Shown here: positions 1 to 33,398 of the stretch, one piece after another
Layout: each line of letters starts with the position of its first letter
Position numbering within the stretch: the stretch's first letter is position 1
IMG/VR virus record: IMGVR_UViG_3300032289_001068
Span: 1 to 33,398 of that record
Length of the DNA: 33,398 bases
Origin: a virus
Reading direction: 5' to 3' (one strand)
Notes under the pieces: generated by a model
What the model was told of the DNA's origin: nothing
Database searches by the model: none
What the model saw: only the letters and a program-made list of their open reading frames with translations
Position numbers and translations under genes: made by a program

Positions 1-433
1 AAAAACGCCACTTCCATTTAGTGATAGCTTCTTTATTTATTTGTGCATTGACCTTGTAATATCGCACCGAATCAAGTGCTATGCCTATTGCTCTGGTATC
101 TACCACAAAACCGGTGTGTATTTCTTTTACCTTAACTGTCTTGATTATTATTTTAGGCTCTTCCTTAATTGTTATGTATTCTTTTCCGTTAATAGTAATT
201 GTATCTCTTGTATAGTTAGTAATGGTATCAACAAGTAGGGTAGTGTCATATTTGGTTATTAAGGTTGTATCGTTTACGCAAGGTCTAGTTTTTTCTAGTT
301 CTCTAAATACTCGTTCACTACTCTCTAGATTATTTAAGACTCTTTTTTCTGCCTTCCTTATAGGACTGCATGAAAATACAAGTAAAGCAATGATACTTAA
401 GTAAATAAGTAAAAGTTTATTTATTGGTGCCAT
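1..433 (-). CDS. u-spanin candidate, N-terminal part (runs off left edge; continues at 33398-33325)
   Basis: The frame is open from the ATG at 433 (an alternative ATG is at 439) to position 1 and continues without a break from 33398 down to a TAG at 33325 if the window is circular, giving about 168 residues. The N-terminus has a basic start, a hydrophobic stretch and a lipobox-like VFSC with Cys22, which is a lipoprotein signal. The middle is periplasmic in character, rich in Thr, Lys and Glu with beta-type alternation and a TTLITKYDTTLLVDT segment. The far C-terminus, on the other side of the join, has one membrane span. A lipidated N-terminus plus a C-terminal inner-membrane anchor is the architecture of a unimolecular spanin (T1 gp11 type), which disrupts or fuses the outer membrane in lysis. 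It overlaps the candidate holin upstream and the M15 endopeptidase downstream. Function is inferred from topology and position; I recognise no sequence family. Confidence 0.75.
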   Translation of the reverse strand, partial: MAPINKLLLIYLSIIALLVFSCSPIRKAEKRVLNNLESSERVFRELEKTRPCVNDTTLITKYDTTLLVDTITNYTRDTITINGKEYITIKEEPKIIIKTVKVKEIHTGFVVDTRAIGIALDSVRYYKVNAQINKEAITKWKWRF

Positions 434-653
434 ATCCATATTGTTGAATGCGCATTGTTTTTTTCTTTTTTCCATATCTTGTATCTCTTGGGTTTAAATA
501 ATTAATTATAATAGGTAAAACGGATAATACGCCAGCGCTTACGCACTCCTTCCAGGTTACATCATAAACATTTCCTTTAGTCAATACCATGGTAAGTATT
601 GCAGTTAGTGCAACTTTTAACCATGATCCATAAATACTATTTAAGAATTTCAT
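417..653 (-). CDS. small two-span membrane protein, holin candidate
   Basis: This 78-residue protein has two hydrophobic stretches, roughly residues 11-26 (WLKVALTAILTMVLTKG) and 38-51 (CVSAGVLSVLPIIINYL), followed by NPRDTRYGKKKK and a basic tail. The size, two spans and charged C-terminus suit a class II-like holin, which would release the endopeptidase to the cell wall. It lies directly upstream of the spanin candidate, overlapping it by 17 bases, and its ATG overlaps the stop of the preceding gene as ATGA. The ending with an NPxDxRYG motif resembles small holin-like proteins I associate with Bacteroidetes phages, but that is recollection. A non-holin membrane role is possible. Confidence 0.6.
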   Translation of the reverse strand: MKFLNSIYGSWLKVALTAILTMVLTKGNVYDVTWKECVSAGVLSVLPIIINYLNPRDTRYGKKKKTMRIQQYGYGTNK

Positions 654-32543: not shown

Positions 32544-32901
32544 ATATATTCAACTTTACACCGGATGCAATGATCACGCACTAAAGCGTATCAGTGTTAT
32601 TTTAGAGGATAAGATTAACCCTAGAGTAACTGAAAAAGTGGTGTTTGTAGAAAGGTTTGTAAATAAAAATACAAAGCCAAAAATGAGCATTGAAGATTGG
32701 GCGACAATTTATTTTAAAGAAAACAGCCTTACTTATGAGGAAGTAAACCAAAGGTCCAGAAAGCTAGAGGTTTGTAGAATTAGAACTAAATTTTGTCGTG
32801 AGGCGTTTACAGCTGGTTACGGATGCGCCGTACAAGCAAGATTTTTAAAGCGTAACCATACTACAATATTGCACAGTATACACCAGATAAAAACTAAATA
32901 G
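32527..32901 (+). CDS. DnaA domain IV-like DNA-binding protein
   Basis: In this 124-residue protein, residues 78-124 match the pattern of the DnaA C-terminal helix-turn-helix domain: RKLEVCRIRTKFCREAF, GYGCAVQARFLKRNHTTILHS. The RNHTTILHS segment is the DnaA signature (RDHSTVLHA in bacteria). The ATPase part is absent; residues 1-70 are an unrelated helical front with an MSIEDWATIYFKEN segment. It may bind DnaA boxes or iterons as a phage initiator or compete with host DnaA. It is the last gene of the early unit and overlaps the endopeptidase by 8 bases at the ends. Confidence 0.75.
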   Translation: MKEILKYIQLYTGCNDHALKRISVILEDKINPRVTEKVVFVERFVNKNTKPKMSIEDWATIYFKENSLTYEEVNQRSRKLEVCRIRTKFCREAFTAGYGCAVQARFLKRNHTTILHSIHQIKTK

Positions 32902-33352
32902 GCTCGTATTTACTCCCATCTAAAGCCCTTAAGACTTGGTTTCTTAGGGGTTTTTTTGTTGTGTAACTTACATGTACCCAAGATGGGTTTTTATCCGTCC
33001 CATGCTCCCAGATAAGTTGATCAAATTTTAAACTTGATTTTATATAATTAAAAATGTCAGCATTTGTAATATTGTGGCTGTGTCCGTCCATGTCAATATC
33101 TATGGCTTCCCCCCTAGAATGCTGGCTATTTTTTGCGGCGCCTTTTATTAACTTACAAAGCTCGACGGACCGGAAGCCACTGCTAATATAAATAGGCACG
33201 CGGAAGTTATTTCGTATTGGCTCGAATATGTTTTCGGCTAATTGTTTAAGGTTCTCTATTTGTTCGGCGTTGGGCATATTTGTAATGCCGGCACGCTTTG
33301 CGCTCTCGGATCTAATAAGTTCCCCTAATGTAAGGTGTTCGCTAATGACCAT
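32894..33352 (-). CDS. M15-family endopeptidase (endolysin)
   Basis: This 152-residue zinc peptidase of the M15 D-Ala-D-Ala carboxypeptidase type begins MVISEHLTLGELIRSESA. Zinc and catalytic residues are in place: SSGFRS, His78 and Asp85 in SQHSRGEAIDID, Glu116 in LIWEHG, and His127 in WVHVSY. It would cut cell-wall cross-links. It has no signal peptide, so a holin is needed for access. It overlaps the spanin candidate by 28 bases and is the last gene of the late unit, converging on the early unit. Confidence 0.9.
   Translation of the reverse strand: MVISEHLTLGELIRSESAKRAGITNMPNAEQIENLKQLAENIFEPIRNNFRVPIYISSGFRSVELCKLIKGAAKNSQHSRGEAIDIDMDGHSHNITNADIFNYIKSSLKFDQLIWEHGTDKNPSWVHVSYTTKKPLRNQVLRALDGSKYEPI
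32925..32957 (+). terminator. plus-strand terminator inside the M15 gene
   Basis: The stem CCC(T)TAAGA with TCTTAGGG (one bulged T; 32926-32934 with 32942-32949) is followed by seven T (32951-32957). It lies 24 bases after the DnaA-like stop and inside the end of the antisense endopeptidase gene, so it closes the early unit while serving as coding sequence on the other strand. Confidence 0.75.
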
Positions 33353-33398
33353 ACGTAACGTTTTAAAAATATAAAACCTACTATTGCAATTATAAGCC
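33325..33398 (-). CDS. u-spanin candidate, C-terminal part (continues the gene at 1-433)
   Basis: With position 33398 joined to position 1, the split codon TGG keeps the frame and gives WLIIAIVGFIFLKRYVWSLA and then NTLH stop at 33325. This is one hydrophobic span, preceded by KWKWRF and followed by KR, so it is an inner-membrane anchor with a short cytoplasmic tail. The stop overlaps the M15 start by 28 bases. It has no ATG of its own and makes sense only as the continuation of the left-edge gene. Confidence 0.75.
   Translation of the reverse strand, partial: LIIAIVGFIFLKRYVWSLANTLH

Follow-up and report, generated by a model that had tools for sequence, protein, structure and literature searches.

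The u-spanin (unimolecular spanin) gp11 of Escherichia phage T1 has an N-terminal lipobox, a periplasmic body and a C-terminal membrane span, and its gene adjoins the holin and endolysin genes. Proteins of the T1 gp11 type have a short helix and, after it, at least four beta elements (PMC6139136). None of 58 catalogued u-spanins, belonging to 13 families, has a periplasmic cysteine (Kongari et al. 2018, PMC6139136), and a later review likewise describes u-spanins as devoid of periplasmic cysteines and as having no known amphipathic region (PMC7830690). In two-component spanins, at least one periplasmic cysteine is found in 507 of 528 cases, and the sole Cys29 of lambda Rz1 forms a homotypic disulfide (PMC6139136).

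As for phages of Bacteroidota, a 2025 survey reported that Bacteroidetes phages use u-spanins exclusively (PMC12596118), and therefore the u-spanin class is already known there. It is fair of the first-pass annotation to call the spanins of Bacteroidetes phages poorly described, although u-spanin use has been reported, both in this survey and for Cellulophaga phage Ingeline (PMC12596118, PMC8776804). The Bacteroides phage B124-14 and the phages P2559S and P2559Y are Bacteroidota phages that stand on a published list of spanin-less phages (PMC6139136).

Here we describe a u-spanin-like gene found in a viral record of 33,398 bases without end repeats; this whole stretch is called the window. With a probability of about 0.82, the gene is read as encoding a unimolecular-type spanin of a Bacteroidota phage, a protein proposed to fuse both membranes and perhaps to act as a Cys52 disulfide-linked dimer.

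A gene interrupted by the circular join

The ORF lies on the minus strand, running from an ATG at position 433 to base 1 and then from base 33398 to a TAG stop at 33325–33327, and comprises 168 codons when joined (MAPINK...LLVFSC22SPIRKAEKRVLNNLESSERVFRELEKTRPC52VNDT...KWKWRFWLIIAIVGFIFLKRYVWSLANTLH). The 5′ part (1–433, minus strand; codons 1–144 plus 1 nt) covers the signal peptide, the lipobox, the amphipathic helix region, Cys52, the middle region and the start of the pre-membrane segment, while the 3′ part beyond the circular join (33325–33398, minus strand) covers the C-terminal membrane span, the tail and the TAG codon. By codon count, the lipobox V19-F20-S21-C22 is located at 368–379 and the codon for Cys52, an invariant periplasmic cysteine at +30 from the lipid cysteine, at 278–280, both on the minus strand.

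The circular join is considered real because a close relative, L002, reads straight across it: this 8.2-kb contig from a different sample encodes a 92% identical, uninterrupted protein. When L002 is compared with the joined window, the single gap in the gene body is 3 nt long (TGG) and falls exactly at the join, and the remaining ten sequences of alignment A1 also have a residue at this position. Thus, the real product probably has 169 aa, with the sequence ...WRFWWLII... in which RFWW lies at the join. The earlier statement that the gene is hidden in linear assemblies applies to this record but not to the relatives, as the gene is intact in 49 distinct ones.

Relatives are encoded at 55 viral loci and on one contig of a Chitinophagaceae MAG. 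The distinct full-length set consists of 49 homologues, with identities of about 47–93%, and the window protein (n = 50). Between the window gene and that of L002, dN is 0.036 and dS 0.247; the u-spanin-like gene is under purifying selection, and these values, together with the retention of both anchors in 49 distinct sequences, argue that the ORF is not a chance one. The protein was said to belong to no recognised family, and indeed no useful match was obtained in Pfam, PHROGs, NCBIfam or the GenBank phage collection, the last searched by tblastn with three family members. Library matches such as Chordopox_G3 and Trep_dent_lipo were at chance level and under the cut-offs, and the only match in a search of solved structures was by chance. 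Searches of about 395 Bacteroidota genomes and of 398 genomes from the order of genome G454 yielded few true relatives; weak matches at L074, L075 and L078–L080 were rejected as relatives.

The lysis cassette

Directly upstream of the u-spanin-like gene, a 78-aa small membrane protein of the MKFLN type, a holin candidate, is encoded at 417–653 (minus strand), overlapping the spanin start by 17 nt. Downstream, a 152-aa M15 peptidase (Peptidase_M15_3; 32894–33352, minus strand) shares 28 nt with the end of the spanin gene; it is the likely endolysin, with matches to the endolysin family phrog_894 (3e-31) and to PF08291 (2.1e-14). The overlaps with a holin candidate and an endopeptidase claimed by the first-pass annotation are therefore both present. 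The order of spanin and endolysin is reversed in T1, where the endolysin gene precedes the spanin gene.

Farther upstream on the same strand lie the genes for a 58-aa small membrane protein of the MTHES type (650–826) and, beyond it, its 76-aa tandem paralogue (839–1069), both holin/antiholin candidates. The MTHES-type gene, doubled in the window, is present as a single copy in the near relative L002 (2451–2636), and the tandem paralogues are possibly a holin/antiholin pair born of duplication. The upstream genes are candidate holins by size, hydrophobicity and position, and their library matches are weak.

In each of the 49 relatives, the u-spanin-like gene is preceded by two small membrane genes and followed by a peptidase gene. 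The peptidase is of the Peptidase_M15_3 type in 46 of them and of the VanY/M15_4 type in the other three (L059, L061 and L064; that of L061 matches PF13539 at 9.5e-15), and hence the wall enzyme has been swapped in a cassette that kept its spanin candidate and the neighbouring membrane genes. This lysis-cassette context, combined with the architecture of the protein, makes a strong contextual case for a spanin of the unimolecular type.

The two predicted membrane anchors

The lipobox VFSC with Cys22, as described by the first-pass annotation, is present in the ORF, and its cysteine is kept in every homologue; in all 50 distinct sequences, a cysteine closes the N-terminal hydrophobic stretch. 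The strict lipobox consensus [LVI][ASTVI][GAS]C is matched by 20 of the 50. The window motif deviates from this consensus by Phe at position −2, a residue found at this position in 0 of 31 control cysteine motifs, which were drawn from loci of SusD-type genes and are mostly SusD-type themselves. Atypical lipoboxes, such as AWAC, have been proven functional in a u-spanin (PMC6139136). Position +2 after the lipid cysteine is occupied by Asn in 48 sequences, Ser in one and His in one. Averaged over alignment columns, identity amounts to 0.49 for the signal and 0.53 for the span, and it is highest, at 0.79, in the 37 residues that directly follow the signal. Such a variable signal ahead of a well-conserved stretch would be expected if the signal is that of a lipoprotein and is cleaved off, and Cys22 is predicted to be lipidated.

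Acidic surface-export signals have been described for Bacteroidetes lipoproteins (PMC5080379). No acidic residue occurs at +2 to +6 after the lipid cysteine in any of the 50 family sequences, and the family thus lacks a surface-export signal of the Bacteroidetes type, which is what an outer-membrane anchor facing the periplasm would require.

The C-terminal membrane span, which had been proposed to lie across the join, was found in the window as a hydrophobic stretch and is present in 50 of 50 distinct sequences, with no homologue lacking it. An AlphaFold2 model places a long C-terminal helix here with pLDDT of about 80–90. Since positively charged residues lie on either side of the span, the positive-inside rule leaves its orientation unfixed. 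The predicted topology is one with the lipid end in the outer membrane and the span in the inner membrane.

Since both ends are hydrophobic and the neighbours are small membrane proteins, the product may alternatively be a two-span inner-membrane protein, namely a holin, antiholin or lysis timer, whose N-terminal stretch is an uncleaved anchor that is never lipidated; the departure of VFSC from the strict consensus, with a Phe missing from the control set, also speaks for this. However, the cysteine after the hydrophobic stretch is invariant and nearly always followed by Asn, conservation is low in the stretch itself and highest right after the cysteine, the periplasmic body of more than 100 residues is far above typical holin size, and the place of the holin is already filled by two other small membrane genes. 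We regard this reading as quite improbable. Phage lipoproteins of the Cor or Llp kind exist, and the lipobox would equally suit an outer-membrane lipoprotein with another role, such as superinfection exclusion or receptor blocking, that merely resides inside the lysis cassette. However, lipoproteins of this kind are not known to have a C-terminal span, whereas here the span is conserved, a surface-export signal is absent, and none of the 49 relatives has the gene outside the lysis cassette, despite the exchange of the endolysin; such a role is highly improbable.

The periplasmic body and an invariant cysteine

Exactly one cysteine, at +30, is located between the lipid cysteine and the span in 50 of 50 sequences. 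This residue, Cys52 of the window protein, had not been mentioned by the first-pass annotation. The absence of a periplasmic cysteine, regular in catalogued u-spanins though outside their definition, is thus not a feature of this family. Segment 36–49, just before Cys52, is amphipathic when modeled as a helix: its moment of 0.70 is reached by 0.2% of shuffles, and the corresponding value is below 5% of shuffles in 42 of the 50 members. AlphaFold2 with alignment A2 gave a low-confidence model (mean pLDDT 63, pTM 0.28), with helices at 4–21, 23–34 and 36–49, a hairpin at 75–81/84–90 and a helix at 113–168 entering the span. A beta-type body, as earlier suggested, is therefore not established and at most partly supported, the model having few strands, in one weak hairpin.

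In comparison with T1 gp11, the lipobox, body and span of the window protein follow the same plan, as had been noted, but the likeness is one of plan and not of descent: there is no sequence relation (hhalign probability 0.8%). The periplasmic part of T1 gp11 is free of cysteine, its other cysteines being in the signal and the span, in contrast to the window family with Cys52, and its beta-strand pattern (PMC6139136) contrasts with the amphipathic helix of the window family. Lambda Rz1 shares with the family an outer-membrane lipoprotein end with one periplasmic cysteine; Rz and Rz1, however, are encoded by two genes, whereas both anchors are carried by one chain in the window, where neither a second lipobox gene nor a nested frame shared by the family was found.

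Spanin candidates of other Bacteroidota phages were also compared. The Ingeline candidate, whose identity with the ORF of PMC8776804 we infer, shares the lipobox and the C-terminal span but is unrelated in sequence, and has one periplasmic cysteine in a different context. In Flavobacterium phages 11b and FCL-2, proteins with a lipobox and a C-terminal span were found by architecture, and these lack a periplasmic cysteine. Their genes (L093:28129–28593 in 11b, following a GH19 gene, and L095:11415–11798 in FCL-2) are unannotated; the products start with CGSRKVE after the signal and are u-spanin candidates of another family. As the 11b and FCL-2 candidates are free of cysteine and that of Ingeline has one, the cysteine marks this and some other lineages rather than Bacteroidota phages as a whole. 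In a phage of Bacteroides fragilis, Bacteroides phage vB_BfraS_NCTC, a 201-aa DUF6549 protein is encoded directly after an M15 peptidase (L069:3390–3995); with its N-terminal hydrophobic anchor and coiled-coil-like body, it looks i-spanin-like.

The invariant cysteine and the amphipathic helix place the family nearer to two-component spanins than to catalogued u-spanins (PMC6139136, PMC7830690), which might mean that the protein is half of a two-component spanin, an o-spanin-like lipoprotein with an accessory span whose i-spanin is encoded unrecognised elsewhere. Against this, no nested frame common to the family was found, the longest alternative-frame ORF being 42 aa, and the genes from holin to endolysin are contiguous with no space for a partner; only a very small probability is given to this explanation. 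As candidates for a nested o-spanin, 31-aa alternative frames of L003 and L005 with a lipobox-like string were rejected, being too short and not shared. The u-spanin-like gene itself is the sole credible lipobox ORF in the window, where a second lipobox gene was not found.

It is very likely that the family is a u-spanin-type lysis protein with an unusual conserved cysteine. With Cys22 lipidated, a disulfide of Cys52 would have to be intermolecular, and by analogy with lambda Rz1 a homodimer linked through Cys52 is the natural inference. Cys52 could also be conserved for a different reason, for example, binding of a metal or a host partner. The more specific idea of a u-spanin acting as a disulfide-linked dimer, in which an o-spanin-like module (lipid, amphipathic helix and one cysteine) is combined with an inner-membrane span, is put forward tentatively, as possible but somewhat doubtful.

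Remote relatives and the host

Two genes in genomes of the family of the MAG, Chitinophagaceae, match the profile over nearly the whole length: L076 (E = 7e-19), which also gives an hhalign probability of 98.8%, and L077 (E = 2.7e-16). These prophage genes, at ~30% identity, resemble the window gene in both cysteines, the KA and PC motifs and the C-terminal span, the second cysteine being at +30 in L076 and at +29 in L077. An alignment including both retains 15 invariant columns, among them the lipid cysteine and the Pro-Cys pair. Their holin or endolysin neighbours, however, are of other types than those of the window; L076 lies between a gene that weakly matches Phage_holin_4_1 and one for a PG_binding_1 protein. 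The L076 contig is 4.67 Mb long, and L076 is therefore chromosomal. Both genes support a Bacteroidota host. The terminase of the window was uninformative as to host, and the phage probably infects Bacteroidota of the Chitinophagales.

There is a more distant case. L081 (1282–1764, minus strand) encodes a 160-aa protein with a lipobox, a C-terminal span and a second cysteine at about +25. Its likeness to the family is convincing over about 39 N-terminal residues alone (hhalign 70%). The gene overlaps a Phage_holin_4_1 gene and has a weak match to phrog_812 (Rz-like spanin).

Possible mechanism and its meaning

In the preferred reading, a disulfide-linked u-spanin, the signal peptide would export the protein, a lipid would be attached at Cys22, and the N-terminal end would become anchored in the outer membrane, at its inner leaflet, with the C-terminal span remaining in the inner membrane, so that a single molecule bridges the periplasm. 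Cys52, as the only free periplasmic cysteine, would then pair with Cys52 of a second molecule, and the resulting dimer would be held in the peptidoglycan mesh until lysis. Once the inner membrane has been opened by the upstream small membrane proteins, acting as holins, and the wall has been cut by the M15 peptidase, the released dimers may collapse or cluster, whereby the two membranes would fuse, the last barrier would disappear and the phages exit. What the sequences show directly is the ORF with its join, the conserved sequences of both anchors, the single invariant cysteine, purifying selection and the lysis neighbourhood, from which lipidation, location, topology, the disulfide, fusion and the host are predicted.

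The lysis task of such a protein is already known; what appears to be new, judging from the sequences, is an invariant periplasmic cysteine in a u-spanin-type family without a counterpart in Pfam, PHROGs or NCBIfam. Most spanins of Bacteroidota phages lack an annotation, and this family offers a defined, widespread and testable set. It raises the question of whether all u-spanins do without disulfide-linked dimers, as has been stated, or whether one lineage has a covalent dimer of the lambda type. A disulfide-linked u-spanin, if true, would break the rule that u-spanins dispense with periplasmic disulfides. It would also fit a proposed, hitherto undocumented route in which an o-spanin acquires a C-terminal span.
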